From NCBI RefSeq assembly GCF_001436695.1, contig NZ_AYZG01000001.1, positions 62,001-126,000 on the forward strand: a stretch of DNA of 64,000 nt, in the 5' to 3' direction. Below the pieces are notes generated by a model that saw only the letters and a list, made by a program, of their open reading frames with translations, did not search any database and was not told where the DNA came from. How positions within the stretch are numbered: position 1 is the first letter of the stretch; the number at the start of each line of letters is the position of its first letter. The position numbers were made by a program, and so were the translations under genes. The DNA is from Lactobacillus taiwanensis DSM 21401. GTDB lineage: Bacteria > Bacillota > Bacilli > Lactobacillales > Lactobacillaceae. Shown in pieces: positions 11,646 to 53,312 of the stretch.

Positions 11646-12410
11646 TTAATCATCAAAATAAGCATAAAGATCACTTACTTTTAATTTCTTTTTTTCTGGC
11701 TCATTAATATCAACCTTAACTCTCCCATCCTTTAAAACTAAAAGACGATTTCCATATTTTAAAGCATCTTCCATATGGTGCGTAATCATTAAGGCAGTCA
11801 GTTTATTTTCCTTAATCTGCTTATCAGTTACAGCTAATAAATTTTCACTAGTATGTGGATCTAGAGCTGCCGTATGTTCATCTAAGAGTAAAATATCAGG
11901 CCTTTCAATAGTTGCCATCAGAAAGCTCAATGCTTGTCTTTGTCCTCCAGATAAGCCTTCGACAAAGCTATTCAACCGATTTTCTAAACCGTTATTCATC
12001 ACCCTAGCCATTTCTTTAAAATGAGGAATGTTTTCTTTCAATTTTCTAATCTTTAAAAATCTTTTTTTCCCTCTATTGGTGGCTAATAGTAAATTTTCAG
12101 CCACTGTCATTCTTGGAGCAGTTCCCATTTTAGGATCTTGAAAAACTCGTCCAATAAACTGAGTTCTTTTTTCTTCACTCATCTTAGTAATATCTTGACC
12201 ATCATGAAGAATCTGACCGCTATCTGGTTTTAAACTACCTGCAATTGTGTTAAATAATGTAGATTTTCCCGCACCATTAGTTCCAATAATTGTAATAAAA
12301 TCACCAGATTTAATTTTTAAATTAATCCCTTTTAAAATAGGAATAATTTCGCCATCCGCTGTTTTAACAGTAGTTTTTACATCTTTTAATTCTAGAGTTG
12401 ATTTAGTCAT
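11646..12410 (-). CDS. ABC transporter ATPase (TrpZ-like)
   Basis: This is the 254-residue nucleotide-binding subunit of an importer whose partners are the next two genes upstream. Visible motifs are Walker A GTNGAGKST near residue 42, the signature VEGLSGGQRQALS, Walker B DILLLDEHTAALDP, and the H-loop MITHHME. It belongs with the COG1101/COG4120/COG2984 type importers that include streptococcal TrpXYZ, which has been linked to tryptophan uptake. Its start overlaps the permease end by eight bases, so translation is coupled. Confidence 0.88.
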   Translation of the reverse strand: MTKSTLELKDVKTTVKTADGEIIPILKGINLKIKSGDFITIIGTNGAGKSTLFNTIAGSLKPDSGQILHDGQDITKMSEEKRTQFIGRVFQDPKMGTAPRMTVAENLLLATNRGKKRFLKIRKLKENIPHFKEMARVMNNGLENRLNSFVEGLSGGQRQALSFLMATIERPDILLLDEHTAALDPHTSENLLAVTDKQIKENKLTALMITHHMEDALKYGNRLLVLKDGRVKVDINEPEKKKLKVSDLYAYFDD

Positions 12411-13302
12411 GCTTGTTTACACCTCTCTTTATCGGCTTTTTTAAATGCGTAACTTTTTCAAGTTGTGGCAGCATCATGCAAAGTGCCAAGACAATTGAAG
12501 AAATTAAATTCAAATCATTAGCAGAAAATCCTAACTGTAATACTGCTAATAAAATCAAACGATAAATAATACTGCCTAAAGTTACAGCTACTAATCGCTG
12601 ATTTAAAGTTAATTCACCAAATGCTACTTCACCGATGATAATTGAAGCTAGAGCAATAACAATAGTTCCAATTCCCATATTAATATCAGCATAACCATTA
12701 TTTTGCGCAATTAATGCTCCACATAAGGCAACTATTCCGTTTGAAAGCATTAAACCAATAATTACCATAAAATCTGTATGGATACCTAATGATTTCGCCA
12801 TCTTAGGGTTATCACCTGTTGCAATAAACGCTTGACCAAAATCTGTATTTAAAAAGAAAATCAATATCCCAGTAATTACAACTACGATTCCAATTCCTAG
12901 AAAAACACTATTAAAATATTGAGGTAAATTTTCTAAAAATTCATTGTTGAGTAATGTCTTCTTACCAATCAGTGAAATATTAGAACCGCCCATAATTCTT
13001 AAATTAATAGAATAAATTGCCGTCATTGTTAAAATACCAGCAAGTAGAATTGGAATTTTTCCTTTTGTATACAAAAGCCCCGTCACTAATCCAGCTATCA
13101 TTCCTGCAACAAACGCTAATAATGTTGCTAAATAAGGCGACATACCATGTGAAATATTAGCAACAGCAACAGCCGCTCCTAGGGGAAAAGTACCTTCTAC
13201 TGTCATATCAGCAAAATTTAAAATTCTAAAGGTTAAATACAGTCCTAATCCTAAAAGTGCCCATAGTAATCCTTGGCCAATTGCAGATACAATTAAATTC
13301 AT
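12403..13302 (-). CDS. ABC transporter permease (TrpY-like)
   Basis: This 299-residue membrane protein has about eight to nine hydrophobic segments and resembles branched-chain/ribose type permeases of COG4120. The start MNLIVSAIGQGLLWALLGLGLYLTF and the ADMTVEGTFPLGAAV segment are typical of that family. It overlaps the substrate-binding gene by four bases (ATGA) and the ATPase gene by eight, making a tightly coupled three-gene operon. Confidence 0.88.
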   Translation of the reverse strand: MNLIVSAIGQGLLWALLGLGLYLTFRILNFADMTVEGTFPLGAAVAVANISHGMSPYLATLLAFVAGMIAGLVTGLLYTKGKIPILLAGILTMTAIYSINLRIMGGSNISLIGKKTLLNNEFLENLPQYFNSVFLGIGIVVVITGILIFFLNTDFGQAFIATGDNPKMAKSLGIHTDFMVIIGLMLSNGIVALCGALIAQNNGYADINMGIGTIVIALASIIIGEVAFGELTLNQRLVAVTLGSIIYRLILLAVLQLGFSANDLNLISSIVLALCMMLPQLEKVTHLKKPIKRGVNKHD

Positions 13303-14291
13303 TTATATACAACTCCTTTTCTCTGACAATCTTTAAGAAATCTTGCAGGAATTTGCAAATTTAATTTTCTAGCTTCTTTTAAATTAACAATTGGTTCTCC
13401 CGTTTTCACTCTCTCAACTGGTAAAGAACTAACTTTTTTACCCTTTAAAATTTCAATAGTCATCTTTCCAGTCATTTTTCCTAACTCATATTGATTAACA
13501 CTATAAGTTGCAAGACCACCTTGTTTTACCATAGTTGCTGCAGCAGGGAAAATTGGCTTTTTAACAACATTTCCATTTTTAACAAGAGTTTCCATTGCTC
13601 CGGCAATAGTATTGTCAGTTGGAACAATTACAGCGTCTACTTGACTAAACATTTGCTCCGAAACTTGATTAAGATCATTGCTATTAGCAATTGAAAAAGA
13701 CTTTAAATTTATTTCTCTCTTTTTACATTCACGCTCAATCTCATGAAAGCCGCTAACTGCAGAAGAATCACTAGAAGTATAAATTACTCCTAAAGTCTTT
13801 AAATTAGGTAAAAATTCCCTAATTAAATCCAATTGTTGCCTAATTGGAGCAGCATCTGATACACCAGTAATATTTTTTTCGGGATGTCTTTCATTTTTTA
13901 CTAGCCCACTAGTTTTTGGACTTGTTACAGCACCTAAAACTATTGGAATCTTATTGGTTGTATTCGCCAATGCTTGGGCAGCTGGAGTAGTAATTCCAAC
14001 TAATACTCTTGACTCCTCATCAGTTAGCTTTGTTGCCATCGTACGTAAATTACTCTGATCATTATTTGCATTTTGATAGTCAATTTTGATATTTTTTCCA
14101 TTTACGTAGCCCTCTTCTTTCAGCTCATCTCGAAAGCCGCGATATATCTCATCAAGAGCCGGGTGACGCATAAGAGTTAAGACACCAACTCGGGGAATTT
14201 TATTATTTTCTTCTTTTTGTTTATTTTCTCCAAAAAAAGCTATGGTTAGAAAAGCTACTAAAATTACAATTAATCCATACATTCTTTTCAT
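13299..14291 (-). CDS. ABC transporter substrate-binding protein (TrpX-like)
   Basis: This 330-residue extracytoplasmic binding protein (ABC_sub_bind, COG2984) opens with a hydrophobic segment of about residues 4-19. That segment has no lipobox cysteine, so the protein is probably held by an uncleaved signal anchor or released, which is unusual for a Gram-positive binding protein. The core VGVLTLMRHPALDEIY and VGITTPAAQALA is family-typical. Streptococcal TrpX is the closest characterised relative I know. A Trp codon in the leader peptide upstream supports a tryptophan or related aromatic substrate, but that is inference. Confidence 0.85.
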   Translation of the reverse strand: MKRMYGLIVILVAFLTIAFFGENKQKEENNKIPRVGVLTLMRHPALDEIYRGFRDELKEEGYVNGKNIKIDYQNANNDQSNLRTMATKLTDEESRVLVGITTPAAQALANTTNKIPIVLGAVTSPKTSGLVKNERHPEKNITGVSDAAPIRQQLDLIREFLPNLKTLGVIYTSSDSSAVSGFHEIERECKKREINLKSFSIANSNDLNQVSEQMFSQVDAVIVPTDNTIAGAMETLVKNGNVVKKPIFPAAATMVKQGGLATYSVNQYELGKMTGKMTIEILKGKKVSSLPVERVKTGEPIVNLKEARKLNLQIPARFLKDCQRKGVVYK

Positions 14292-14302
14292 AATTTTTCT
14301 CC

Positions 14303-14341
14303 AAAAAAACAGGAATCTATTTTCACATGCAGATTCCTGTT
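14303..14341 (-). terminator. Leader terminator 2 of the TrpX-like operon
   Basis: Perfect arms at 14331-14340 and 14309-14318 (ACAGGAATCT / AGATTCCTGT) have a 12-base loop and are followed by seven T residues on the minus strand. It ends only about 12 bases before the first gene of the operon. Its 5' arm and loop contain TCTGCATG, the same octamer as in the 5' arm of terminator 1. Confidence 0.85.
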
Positions 14342-14353
14342 ACTTTTTTATCA

Positions 14354-14391
14354 CAAAAAGAAAAAGGTCTGCATGTTACTCCATGCAGACC
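14354..14391 (-). terminator. Leader terminator 1 of the TrpX-like operon
   Basis: Perfect 10-bp stem GGTCTGCATG / CATGCAGACC (14382-14391 with 14366-14375), a 6-base loop and a TTTTTCTTTTT tail. It is an intrinsic terminator placed inside the leader, about 70 bases after the leader-peptide stop codon. Confidence 0.88.
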
Positions 14392-14431
14392 ACAATAAAT
14401 ACACAGCCAGCACAGATACAATCTGAATCTT

Positions 14432-14459
14432 TCAGGTTGCATCTTGCTTAACAACCTGA
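14432..14459 (-). promoter_or_regulatory. Leader hairpin A, possible attenuator switch element
   Basis: The arms TCAGGTTG and CAACCTGA (8 bp, 12-base loop) begin one base after the leader-peptide stop codon. The 3' side, ATGCAACC at 14442-14435, can instead pair with GGTCTGCAT at 14391-14383 (8 bp with one bulged C), which would block terminator 1. A ribosome sitting on the stop codon would cover the 5' arm. Confidence 0.6.
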
Positions 14460-14460
14460 T

Positions 14461-14511
14461 TTACTGGCCTTGCCAACGATTAATTTTCATAAACTTAGCT
14501 TGTGTATTCAT
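14461..14511 (-). CDS. Leader peptide with a single Trp codon
   Basis: The 16-codon frame encodes MNTQAKFMKINRWQGQ. It has a strong SD (AAGGAG, nine bases before ATG) and sits about 25 bases downstream of the predicted transcription start. It carries one Trp codon at position 13 (14475-14473), three residues before the C-terminus. A peptide this short, between a consensus promoter and two tandem terminators ahead of a TrpXYZ-type importer, is best explained as a regulatory leader. I do not recognise it as a described family. Confidence 0.65.
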   Translation of the reverse strand: MNTQAKFMKINRWQGQ

Positions 14512-14541
14512 AATTAACTACTCCTTAAAAAATTTAATTAT

Positions 14542-14570
14542 ATTGTAATTGGCTTATATTTTTCTGTCAA
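14542..14570 (-). promoter_or_regulatory. Promoter of the leader and TrpX-like operon
   Basis: TTGACA (14570-14565), a 17-base spacer and TACAAT (14547-14542) give a near-consensus sigma-A promoter. Transcription should start near 14535 and yield a leader of about 240 bases. It lies directly after the glyA stop codon seen from the other side and needs no activator by appearance, which points to control by attenuation. Confidence 0.85.
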
Positions 14571-14576
14571 TAGCTT

Positions 14577-15812
14577 TTATTTGATAGGATATTTCTGAAC
14601 TAAATCCTTAATTCTTTCTTTTGCCTGAGCCAATACTTCTGTATCTTCAGGATTATCCAAAACTTCAATAATTATTTTAGCCACTTCTTTAGCATCAGAT
14701 TCCTTAAAGCCTCGGCTAGTTATTGCTGGTGTTCCAATTCTTAATCCACTAGCAATAAATGGGCTTCGCTTATCACCAGGAATAGACTCTTTGTTAGTTG
14801 TAATATTTACTGAGTCCAGTAAATTTTGGGCATCTTTTCCCGTTATACCAGTATTGGTAATATCAATAATCATCAAGTGGTTATCAGTTCCACCTGAAAT
14901 CACGCGAATCTTTTTGCTATTTTTAAATTCTTCAGCCATGGCTTTCGAATTTTTAATTACTTGATTAATGTATTGGGTAAATTCCGGCTGCAAATCTTCA
15001 TAAAAAGCCTGAGCTTTAGCAGCAATAACATGTTCCAAGGGACCACCTTGTGTACCTGGAAAAAGAGCAGAATCAATTTTTTTACTTAATTCTTTATTAT
15101 TAGATAAAATCATCCCTCCACGTGGACCACGCAAAGTCTTATGGGTAGTGGTAGTTACAACATCAGCAACTGGAAGTGGACTTGGATGAGCACCCACTGC
15201 AACTAAACCTGCAATATGGGCCATATCAACCATTAAATAAGCACCAACTTCATCAGCAATATCGCGAAATTTTTGCCAGTCAATAATTCTGCTATATGCG
15301 GAAGCACCAGCAATAATTAATTTAGGCTTATTTTCTAAAGCAATCTGATGAATTTTATCAAAATCTAACTCTTCAGTTTCTGGATTTAGGTCATAACTAA
15401 CAGAATTAAAAATTTTTCCTGAAAAATTAACTTTTGAGCCATGGGTAAGGTGGCCCCCTGCATCCATTCCCATCCCCAAAATTGTATCTCCTGGTTTTAA
15501 TAGAGCATTGTAAACAGTCATATTAGCTTGTGACCCAGAGTGTGGTTGAACATTCACATATTCTGCATTAAATAATTTTTTAGCATAGTCAATCGCCAAT
15601 TGTTCTACTTGATCAATATATTGACAGCCACCGTAATATCTTTTACCGGGATATCCTTCTGCATATTTATTAGTTAAAACTGAACCTTGTGCTTCTCTGA
15701 CAGCATCGGAAACAATATTTTCTGATGCAATTAACTCTATGGTATCTTCTTGCCTTTTTTCTTCATTCTTAATTGCATCCCAAAGTGCTGGTGCTTTCTC
15801 TCCATAATTCAT
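14577..15812 (-). CDS. glyA: Serine hydroxymethyltransferase
   Basis: This PLP enzyme of 411 residues converts serine and tetrahydrofolate to glycine and 5,10-methylene-tetrahydrofolate. The PLP-lysine motif [14 protein letters not shown] near residue 225, the start [10 protein letters not shown] and the [15 protein letters not shown] segment are all present. It lies upstream of the TrpX-like leader on the same strand without an obvious terminator between them. The leader promoter starts within ten bases of the glyA end, so some read-through into the leader is possible. Confidence 0.97.
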
Positions 15813-19363: not shown

Positions 19364-19992
19364 TTAGTCCATATCTATATTATTTGGAAAATGTGCCAAG
19401 CGCTCGTTTTCTACATCTATTTCTTGTTCAATTTCCAATAAGCGATTGTATTTTTCAACACATTCATTACGTGCTGGTGCACCTGATTTTAATTCAGCTG
19501 CATTAGTAGCAACTGTAAAGTCAGCGATAATGTATCTCCAGTTTCACCTGAGCAGTGAGATACCATAGTGGTCATATTATTCTTTCTAGCTAACCTGATC
19601 GCTTCTAAAGTTTCAGTTATCGTACCAATTTAGTTAACCTTAATCAATACCGCGTTACATAGCTTATCTTTAATAGCTTTTCTAACCAGCTTAGGATTAG
19701 TACATACATTATCATCTGCCACTACTTGTATCCTGTTACCAAATTTGGCAGTAAACTTTTCAAAATTATTCCAGTCACAGTCTCCTAAATATCGGTATAG
19801 AGGCTCGTTTTTAGATTTAGCTGCAGCTCTAGCAACTACCATTGAAACACCGAAAATTACTTTAGCGCCAAGCCGCGCCTTATTTGGCGTACCATCTAAA
19901 CCAATCATTAAATTATCAATTGCAGTTTGATTGTATGAACTCTTTTCCCCTAAGACGTTATTAATTTCAATATTAACATTTGTTTCTTTAAT
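19364..19992 (-). pseudogene. Decayed enolase copy
   Basis: The minus strand encodes recognisable enolase in pieces. First comes an N-terminal part around [15 protein letters not shown] and [17 protein letters not shown]. The sequence then jumps (large internal deletion) to [19 protein letters not shown] and LIKVN. A stop codon replaces the usual Gln at 19632. [13 protein letters not shown] and [11 protein letters not shown] follow, then a frameshift near 19530, and [17 protein letters not shown] continues to a stop at 19364. The start, the middle and several active-site segments are missing, so it cannot be functional. It is probably a remnant of a second enolase gene. Confidence 0.88.
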
Positions 19993-30541: not shown

Positions 30542-30806
30542 ATAAACAAAAAACGCCCTACTAGATCAACTTGATCTAATAGGGCGTTTATTACGCGGTA
30601 CCACCTATTCTTCGTTAGCAAAAAATACTAACCTCATGCACGTGCGGCCAATCAAATGATTAGCGATACGTCGCCGCTATAAAGGGCGGCCCCTGAAAAT
30701 ACTAATTGTCGTACTTTCCGCTCAAAGGTGATTTTCACGTAAAACTCGGCCGTCTTCTCACACCAAACGAAGATTCTCTGAAGACCACATTTCATGTTAC
30801 TTTCCT
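30542..30806 (-). ncRNA. T-box leader (tRNA-sensing riboswitch) of the oppA operon
   Basis: On the minus strand, a stem I region with the AG/GNUG-type elements (AGAGAA, TTTGGTGTGAG) near 30785-30755 is followed by the canonical T-box sequence AATAGGTGGTACCGCG at about 30609-30594. A terminator, AACGCCCTA / TAGGGCGTT followed by TTTTTT, lies at 30547-30590. Base pairing of the T-box with uncharged tRNA 3' ends would favour the antiterminator. The specifier lies in GTGAAAATCACC (30738-30727), so candidates are AAT (Asn) or ATC (Ile); I could not decide. Confidence 0.92.
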
Positions 30807-31200
30807 TATCAAAGCTAAACTGTTATTTTTGTTAAAAATAATAATATCAAAAACAAATTATATGTCAATATAAATTTAATAAAAAAATAATTTTAATGTC
30901 ATTTAGATATTCTCTCGTTTCTTTCGATTAACTATGTAAATACAAATTCTTTTTAGTAATTGTGGACGTTTTTTATTTTATAACGAAGTATTTGATTTCT
31001 GTTTCTTGCTTTTTCAATTAATCTCATACTTTGTGATATTTCTACTTATCAATCTATTCAGAATAGTCGCAAGTGCTTCCGCTATCCAAACTTTAGATTA
31101 TCTTTCTGGTAGGTTCCCTTCATAATAATGTAAAGTATTTTTTCAACTAAGCAAAATTTATATTATAATTTTAAGTAATCACTATTTAAGGTAATTACTT
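30807..31200. other. AT-rich intergenic stretch with a possible coding remnant
   Basis: There is no intact gene between the T-box promoter region and the UbiA gene. On the minus strand 31094-31014 reads an uninterrupted coding-like stretch KVWIAEALATILNRLISRN and then stops, with no start codon in frame, which suggests a decayed gene end of unknown family. The promoter of the T-box leader should lie around 30815-30850, and the UbiA promoter lies near 31150-31180. Confidence 0.35.
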
Positions 31201-32581: not shown

Positions 32582-32700
32582 TGTCCCCTCCTAAAAATAA
32601 GAGGAAAGAGGGACATCCTAGGAGGGAAGGTTACTGATATGAATAAATCATACATTCGGACTACCAACCGAATTGTGTTTTTACTTTCCTTAGCGTGTAT
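32582..32700 (-). promoter_or_regulatory. Probable yjdF-motif riboswitch with SD sequestration
   Basis: The 5' leader of yjdF holds a hairpin ATTCGG / CCGAAT near 32677-32656 flanked by AAGGAAAG upstream and a CCTTCC element downstream. Two segments, CCCTCCTA and ATGTCCCTC, can each pair with the SD region TAGGAGGGGACAT just before the ATG. That layout suits translational control. The gene identity makes the yjdF riboswitch class likely, but I could not match a full consensus. Confidence 0.55.
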
Positions 32701-36645: not shown

Positions 36646-36776
36646 ACTAATCCATATTCTGTTGCAAACAAATTTTCGTTATAATTATATCCGCAGAAAG
36701 TTTTATGAGCGGTGGCTGCTTTTCCTCCTGGAGGTGAGTCCTATGGACCGACATCAATCAGAAAGGGTTCAGCCAC

Positions 36777-36869
36777 ATGAGCGTGTACGAGGCTATCTCG
36801 TTAATGCTGTTGTTTGGTACTTTTGTGTTAGCTTTGCTAACATATATCGACAACCACAACAAAAAATAA
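36777..36869 (+). CDS. Holin-like small toxin (type I toxin-antitoxin candidate)
   Basis: The 30-residue frame starts MSVYEAISLMLLFGTFVLAL, followed by LTYIDNHNKK: one hydrophobic helix with a short charged tail, as in the holin-like toxin (Hol-Tox) family of lactobacilli and bacilli. AAGGG precedes the ATG by nine bases. The mRNA 5' region can fold GTGGCTG onto CAGCCAC just before the start, and an upstream CCTCC can mask GGAGG, as expected for a toxin held off by RNA structure. It lies in an intergenic transcript of about 300 bases with its own promoter and terminator. Confidence 0.75.
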   Translation: MSVYEAISLMLLFGTFVLALLTYIDNHNKK

Positions 36870-43690: not shown

Positions 43691-43719
43691 TTGTGTTCGG
43701 AAAATGATTCTGCTACACT
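43691..43719 (+). promoter_or_regulatory. Promoter of xpt-pbuX
   Basis: TTGTGT (43691-43696), a 17-base spacer ending in TGC and TACACT (43714-43719) make an extended -10 promoter. It lies about 20-30 bases upstream of the aptamer. Confidence 0.7.
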
Positions 43720-43735
43720 CTAAATATCAAAATAT

Positions 43736-43812
43736 CTATATATCGTCGTAATAAGGTCGACAGTTTCTACCCGGAACCAATTAATTCTGGACTATAGGTA
43801 ATCGATGTCATA
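43736..43812 (+). ncRNA. Guanine/xanthine-class purine riboswitch
   Basis: The conserved core is visible: GTTTCTACC in P2/J2-3, P3 as CCGGAA / TTCTGG, and the three-way-junction segment GACTATAG. The specificity base in GACTAT is C, which marks the guanine (not adenine) class. It controls xpt and pbuX through the terminator at 43827-43872. The P2 loop AATAAGG differs a little from the usual ATATGG, so affinity may differ. Confidence 0.92.
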
Positions 43813-43826
43813 AGTAGCAGTACAAA

Positions 43827-53112: not shown

Positions 53113-53312
53113 AAAAAAGCTTTTAATCTTATGATCGATAGCGCTCCGCGAATTTTGATTTTCGCGACAGTTTGCAGTCTCTTAAACTACAACCCAGCAA
53201 ATAATATTTCGGCAAGATATTATCACTTCGGCAACTTTCCCTTTCACAATTAATCATAGTTTTGCCAAACTCATAATTGCTACTATTGTCAGTTGCGCCT
53301 CTTCGAATTTAA
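53113..53312 (-). ncRNA. Lysine riboswitch (L-box)
   Basis: On the minus strand the conserved parts appear in order: GAGGCGCAACTGACAATAGTA at the P1/P2 side (53304-53284), GGGAAAGTTGCCGAAG, the GCTGGGTTGTAGTTTAAGA segment, AGACTGC and the closing AGCGCTA. The long P2-P5 arms are present. Lysine binding should favour the terminator at 53080-53112 and shut off lysA to asd. Confidence 0.93.

Follow-up and report, generated by a model that had tools for sequence, protein, structure and literature searches.

A Trp-coding leader peptide upstream of a TrpXYZ-type importer operon in Lactobacillus taiwanensis: a probable ribosome-mediated transcription attenuator related to the Rfam trpB motif

How Lactobacillus taiwanensis DSM 21401 controls its uptake of tryptophan is a question raised by the leader of a trpXYZ-type importer operon in a 64,000-nucleotide stretch of its genome (contig NZ_AYZG01000001.1, positions 62,001 to 126,000; hereafter the window, in whose coordinates all positions are given). 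An original prediction, made from the letters alone, had pointed out a translated peptide with one Trp codon ahead of terminators, and had placed its control closer to a release-controlled ribosome arrest of the TnaC type than to starvation attenuation. Comparison with related loci supported a Trp-bearing leader peptide controlling this importer, and indicated that the leader is most probably a ribosome-mediated transcription attenuator, which would sense charged tRNA-Trp through the one Trp codon of its 16-codon peptide.

The leader peptide and its position before the trpB motif

The leader and the operon are encoded entirely on the minus strand of the window and comprise the following features.

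14542–14570, minus strand: sigma-70-type promoter, TTGACA-17-TACAAT, matching 11 of 12 consensus bases
14521–14526, minus strand: Shine-Dalgarno (SD) sequence of the leader peptide, AAGGAG
14461–14511, minus strand: upstream open reading frame (uORF) of 16 codons, peptide MNTQAKFMKINRWQGQ (ATG 14511–14509, stop codon TAA 14463–14461), with homologous uORFs at about 200 related loci
14473–14475, minus strand: key codon UGG, the sole Trp codon of the uORF, its first base 16 nucleotides 5′ of segment A (listed below)
14355–14448, minus strand: match to RF04312, the "trpB motif" (P1 and terminator 1), 47.2 bits against a gathering score of 59, E = 7e-6
13299–14291, minus strand: trpX, substrate-binding protein of a tryptophan ATP-binding cassette (ABC) importer (NF041285 equivalog, 467.9 bits against a cut-off of 390)
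12403–13302, minus strand: importer permease, TrpY-type (PF02653)
11646–12410, minus strand: importer ATPase, TrpZ-type (PF00005)

The promoter, which sits between the leader and its upstream gene glyA (14577–15812), is near-consensus as originally predicted, and the peptide ending in RWQGQ, its strong SD sequence and the terminators behind it were all located. The binding protein above the NF041285 cut-off, the PF02653 permease and the ABC ATPase form a single operon, which identifies a TrpXYZ importer. Import of tryptophan is probably needed by the host, since no tryptophan synthase beta subunit was detected in the genome. The fold of the whole leader gave z = −7.3 against shuffles, and the functional element extends to approximately 14303, past the hairpin A at which the original description had ended.

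In a permissive Rfam scan, the window element aligned end to end with RF04312, yet under the gathering threshold, and no Rfam family reached its threshold in the leader. It was filed as a below-threshold relative of RF04312, because scores in other genera of the same order reach 86.6. The arrangement that defines the family, a P1 hairpin followed by a terminator in the 5′ untranslated region (UTR) of an importer or trpB gene, is present in the window. RF04312 itself was found in 34 of 75 genomes of the genus and in 212 of 396 of the order. The passages on this motif in the paper that published it in 2024 (as SRC-39-1; PMC11109978) describe a strong riboswitch candidate of Firmicutes with more than 900 members, in which P1 and an intrinsic terminator lie in the 5′ UTR of genes for amino-acid ABC importers or of trpB; they propose an amino-acid-related ligand and mention no open reading frame.

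Statistics on the uORF were taken from 102 non-redundant RF04312 loci, with dinucleotide-shuffled upstream DNA as the control; the sample was drawn from outside the Fusobacteria, in which the motif has also been reported. An SD-led uORF ending just before the motif was found at 98 of the 102 loci, compared with 6.4% in the shuffles, and at about 200 RF04312 loci such a frame lies directly upstream and ends a few bases 5′ of P1. Trp codons accounted for 142 of the 870 codons in the uORF frame, against 3 and 0 in the two other frames. These results together indicate that the uORF is not a product of chance. Immediately before the stop codon, the peptides of the window's genus read RWQGQ, RWQFQH or RWQNR, and those of the other families of the order mostly WQNWRR or WQSWRR. 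An alignment of related leaders had been proposed as a check of the original prediction; the closest relatives share identical last six codons and keep the frame across a few upstream changes, which are too few for a synonymous-site test.

Several hits were set aside. L063, L064 and L129 were false positives with no convincing leader, L129 being a chance pattern match before a DNA polymerase-like reading frame, and L284, L293 and L294 were discarded because the motif was not located or the uORF was unconvincing. A plasmid search with one leader peptide gave no match. At a further locus (L065), a reverse-transcriptase frame of the group II intron type lies approximately 440 bases after the motif, where it replaces the importer gene behind a Trp leader.

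Alternative helices and the register of the key codon

The leader RNA of the window was divided into the following segments.

14464–14469, minus strand: segment A′ (GGCCAG), within the final uORF codons; pairs with the 3′ part of C in the untranslated leader (minimum free energy folds, swap test and covariation)
14451–14459, minus strand: segment A (UCAGGUUGU), 5′ arm of the anti-P1 hairpin A:B (fold, swap test and covariation)
14431–14448, minus strand: segment B, 5′ arm of P1, of which the part 14440–14432 also pairs with A
14405–14426, minus strand: segment C, 3′ arm of P1 and the subsequent GCUGGCU; antiterminator strand
14382–14391, minus strand: segment D, 5′ arm of terminator 1 and alternative partner of C
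14361–14375, minus strand: segment E, 3′ arm of terminator 1 (14375–14366) and U-tract
14325–14340, minus strand: segment F, 5′ arm and loop of terminator 2; can pair with E
14303–14318, minus strand: segment G, 3′ arm of terminator 2 and U-tract

Hairpin A:B (14459–14451 with 14440–14432; −12.3 kcal/mol, z = −5.1) is overlapped by the second hairpin, P1, which is followed by terminator 1 (14391–14366; −17.9 kcal/mol) and terminator 2 (14340–14309; −13.0 kcal/mol). The pairing E:F, evaluated at −19.4 kcal/mol with its intervening stem included, is stronger than terminator 2. The segments thus form a chain of alternatives, A:B / B:C / C:D / D:E, to which A':C is added at the 5′ side and E:F toward the second terminator. 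When the RNA was folded as it stands before terminator 1 is complete, a ribosome placed at the Trp codon gave A:B together with C:D, one at the stop codon gave P1, and the untranslated leader gave A':C.

This chain was examined across the 102 loci by a swap test, in which the duplex energy of native arms is compared with that of arms swapped between species, A being set by the key codon only and B by the start of the motif. The native A:B duplex was better than the swapped one at 100% of the loci (p = 2e-18), and native arms were likewise favored for C:D (p = 2e-10) and A':C (p = 9e-16). They were also favored for B:C and D:E, whose arms were picked in each sequence to maximize pairing so that these two tests are biased upwards; the arms of A:B, C:D and E:F were not so chosen. 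None of the six non-neighbor pairs (A:C, A:D, B:D, C:E, B:E and A:E) favored the native arms. A second terminator was detected in 68 of the 102 leaders, compared with 2 of 60 shuffled controls, and among these 68 the native E:F duplex beat the swapped one in 90% (p = 1e-10), which was not the case for other combinations.

Covariation was counted on an alignment of 52 sequences as the number of paired cells changed on both sides, and was compared with 500 shuffles. The observed counts were 38 for A:B (11.5 in the shuffles), 59 for B:C (23.6), 25 for C:D (7.0), 105 for D:E (34.5) and 21 for A':C (6.3), and for none of these five helices did any of the 500 shuffles match the observed value. Shared ancestry inflates such both-sides counts, against which the negative combinations above and a slide control provide a guard: the paired cells, 79–89% in register, fell to 19–63% after sliding by 1–3 columns. 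Comparison among relatives hence establishes the pairings, and mutually exclusive helices tie the position of the uORF to an intrinsic terminator.

The position of the codon is established in the same way. The distance from the first key codon to A had a median of 19 nucleotides (interquartile range (IQR) 16–19) in the 102 loci and of 23 (IQR 21–25) in a second set of mainly clostridial leaders; the window has 16. The distance from the stop codon to A, by contrast, ranged from −22 to +8, and several leaders contain A inside the reading frame, with the stop lying well beyond it. The short gap noticed in the original prediction stands, though it is 16 nucleotides from the first base of the codon and not 17. 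A ribosome with a codon in its A site covers approximately 13–15 nucleotides ahead, so that one at the key codon would leave A free, and one at the stop codon would cover A in most leaders, the window included. This geometry agrees with that originally described, in which a ribosome with Trp in its A site halts just short of hairpin A and one at the stop covers its 5′ arm; it is also what starvation attenuation needs, since hairpin A is an anti-P1 hairpin whose formation lets C:D form. Attenuators are marked by a regulatory codon that keeps its register to the first switching segment, and a held key-codon distance beside a variable stop distance fits starvation attenuation and argues against a TnaC-like arrest at the stop.

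We infer the positions of the ribosome, the sensing of the tRNA and the direction of the response from these pairings and this register. When Trp-tRNA is short, the ribosome would stall with the Trp codon in its A site, covering A′ and leaving A free. Hairpin A:B would then form and block P1, upon which C would pair with D as the antiterminator and disarm terminator 1, and the freed E arm would pair with F, disarming terminator 2 and allowing trpXYZ to be transcribed. When Trp is plentiful, translation would run to the stop codon, where the ribosome covers A, and formation of P1 (B:C) together with D:E and F:G would stop transcription. In an untranslated leader, A':C would close around A:B and sequester C, and the terminator would form.

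Key codons, downstream genes and alternative readings

A short SD-led uORF whose regulatory codons specify the amino acid of the downstream genes is a further mark of an attenuator, and it was observed well beyond tryptophan. Trp leaders were found ahead of TrpX at 171 loci (one protein cluster), of TrpB at 6 and of one Opp4A-type protein. On the same chassis, the place of Trp is occupied by runs of HHHHH, YYYYY, FFF or LLLL, with matching genes behind them. His-run leaders (HHHLHR, HHHHHR and HHHHHRLKGL) were found in Lactococcus and Clostridia before HisZ, HisC, a HisS-like protein, SBP_bac_3, His-type ABC permeases and binding proteins, APC transporters and a LysP-like permease. Phe/Tyr-rich leaders (FFFSFFR, YYYYYSHYF and FYFSYFS) precede SNF symporters, BrnQ-family carriers and TrpY-like permeases, and LLLL leaders precede an SNF paralogue. 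These comparisons suggest that, across Lactobacillales and Clostridia, one chassis has been adapted to His, Phe/Tyr and Leu genes by a change of key codons. That runs matching the downstream gene can replace Trp indicates reading of codons instead of a conserved arrest peptide.

For the transporters behind non-Trp leaders, substrates were deduced from the leader codons and are to be taken as predictions. The carriers of the BrnQ family (PF05525) found in Clostridia behind Tyr/Phe-rich leaders (L238, L240–L242, L245–L248, L251, L253 and L267) are suggested by them to transport aromatic and not branched-chain amino acids. The SNF paralogues at L266, L271, L277 and L278 lie behind LLLL leaders, and other SNF paralogues of the same families lie behind Phe or Tyr leaders; the leader may thus predict the substrate of each paralogue. 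The Trp leader at L207, which ends in NTRWQSH, has the Opp4A-type oligopeptide-binding protein behind it and hints that Trp may also be obtained by uptake of peptides.

One group of Enterococcus carries leaders ending in NNFYFSYFR before a TrpX-like protein, which scores 340 against the TrpX cut-off of 390, and leaders ending in NTYYFSYFR before 3-deoxy-D-arabino-heptulosonate 7-phosphate (DAHP) synthase. The Phe/Tyr leaders matched another Rfam family, RF02863 "sRNA_2410", in 15 of 15 genomes of one genus-level group (loci L295–L314) and share the same P1, and the trpX leaders of Enterococcus gave no RF02863 match. In E. faecium, sRNA_2410 was detected by RNA-seq and gave two transcripts on Northern blots (PMC5593968). 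In view of its position and codons, RF02863 is probably an attenuator leader as well.

Besides the upward bias of two swap tests mentioned above, several points weigh against the attenuator. The full-length RNA at equilibrium favors the terminator in every ribosome state, so the switch would have to work co-transcriptionally; such dependence on the timing of transcription is normal for attenuators. A lone Trp codon senses weakly in comparison with tandem codons, and transcription and translation have been reported to be loosely coupled in B. subtilis, which would be a handicap for attenuation read by a ribosome. Some non-Trp leaders mix aromatic residues or Val, and their specificity is only approximate. 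Furthermore, 75 of 87 Trp leaders have CAA directly behind the first Trp codon and none has CAG there, a conservation that the attenuator model leaves partly unexplained and an arrest peptide might explain.

Such an arrest was the mechanism favored in the original prediction: free Trp would block the release of the peptide ending in RWQGQ at the stop codon, where the held ribosome would indeed cover A, and P1 and the terminator would shut the importer at high Trp, which is a sensible sign of response. The frequent Gln after Trp speaks for it as well, but since this Gln is always encoded by CAA, and the Arg-Arg-stop of other leaders mostly by CGT AGA TAG, constraint on the RNA and constraint on the peptide are inseparable. 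Conservation of the peptide was hence rejected as proof of arrest, the C-terminal Arg codons by the stop being accounted for by A':C pairing. The variable distance from stop to A, with stops well past A in some leaders, the held distance of the key codon, and the exchange of Trp for His, Phe/Tyr or Leu runs before matching genes all argue against an arrest at the stop. There is also no Pro ahead of the stop, nor a Trp-to-Pro spacing like that of TnaC. We therefore consider a TnaC-like arrest unlikely.

Slightly less probable again is that RF04312 is a metabolite riboswitch, with P1 belonging to an aptamer that binds Trp or a related amino acid, and with an incidental reading frame. The published label and the good conservation and covariation of P1 and some flanking bases are in its favor, but conservation in P1 falls on the bases that it shares with A, A′ and D for exchange of strands, and core P1 is alike across Trp, His, Phe/Tyr and Leu leaders, only the codons differing. 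The uORF is almost universal and stands in fixed register, and the discoverers, in the passages on the motif, themselves left a classic attenuator possible (PMC11109978). Ordinary tandem terminators after glyA with a chance small reading frame and no regulation are very improbable. Terminator 1 could also halt read-through from glyA, but the leader has a near-consensus promoter of its own downstream of that gene, and conservation across families extends to the uORF, the key codon and five alternative helices. A diverged T-box or other tRNA-binding element beyond recognition, for which the T-box control of trpX in Streptococcus suis (PMC9382623) speaks, is given hardly any weight, because the Rfam scan gave no T-box match (RF00230) in the leader at any listed E-value, in agreement with the original prediction, though it found one elsewhere in the window, and the specifier lies in a translated frame.

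Other Rfam cis-elements in the window are a T-box and azaaromatic (yjdF), purine and lysine riboswitches (30577–30821, minus strand; 32593–32694, minus strand; 43716–43814, plus strand; 53130–53311, minus strand). The region 36670–36848 on the plus strand matches the Listeria sRNA rli28 family above its gathering score, and a short frame at 19630–19908 on the minus strand resembles an enolase fragment and is probably a remnant.

Relation to known systems and meaning for the family

Leader-peptide attenuation is classical. The enterobacterial trp, his and phe attenuators likewise sense through the position of the ribosome on regulatory codons of a leader peptide, and their antiterminator and terminator helices exclude each other. 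They have no sequence relation to the leader of the window, which has one Trp codon and not a tandem pair, and an extra 5′ helix, A:B, by which the stalled ribosome would act through leaving A free; an apparent second terminator linked through E:F and the use of one chassis for several amino acids are further differences. In Firmicutes, his genes preceded by leader peptides with His runs, and by attenuator, terminator and antiterminator hairpins, are known from the Bacillus cereus group, Peptostreptococcaceae and Erysipelotrichales (Naville and Gautheret 2010, PMC2965389; Ashniev 2022, PMC9413887). Those descriptions concern His genes only and were unlinked to RF04312 or to Trp, Phe/Tyr and Leu leaders, though the latter study may already include some of the clostridial HHHHH loci reported here. 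TnaC shares a Trp-containing leader peptide whose ribosome affects termination, but it depends on a defined peptide, and its arrest, with free Trp bound, takes place at the stop codon, while here the stop position is free and the key codon exchangeable. The T-box of S. suis trpX (PMC9382623) controls an orthologous importer in response to Trp; it reads uncharged tRNA directly, and no T-box is present here.

The original prediction knew of no description of this leader. Its RNA half is in fact catalogued as the trpB motif, with the same P1 and terminator, whereas the passages publishing that motif (PMC11109978) include neither the reading frame nor A:B, A':C and E:F. In the literature searched, no later paper on RF04312 and no paper describing the leader peptide was found. 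As far as this literature goes, the uORF of RF04312, the exchangeable codons, the helix chain with A:B, A':C and E:F, and the link to RF02863 are new. RF04312 accordingly appears, on comparative grounds, to be the 3′ half of an attenuator read by the ribosome, while RF02863, named as a small RNA (PMC5593968), was found here before a TrpX-like binding protein and DAHP synthase. It is also likely, though held with clearly less confidence than the attenuator in the window, that RF04312 and RF02863 form one transferable Firmicutes chassis whose specificity is set only by a few leader codons (Trp, His, Phe/Tyr and Leu so far), many members having the two-terminator E:F relay.

A single family of translated, codon-programmed attenuators appears to unite a strong riboswitch candidate of more than 900 members and an enterococcal small RNA that had been named separately; this would redirect the hunt for a ligand and explain the varied gene associations of the motif. 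For poorly characterized clostridial and enterococcal transporters (SNF, BrnQ and TrpX-like proteins), the leader codons could predict the substrate. In Firmicutes, T-boxes and riboswitches are considered the dominant devices; if the proposal is true, this chassis fills a niche held elsewhere by T-boxes, in bacteria with presumed loose coupling of transcription and translation. The family would then provide a natural test of ribosome-controlled attenuation in Firmicutes, its exchangeable codons amounting to a codon-swap experiment run by evolution.
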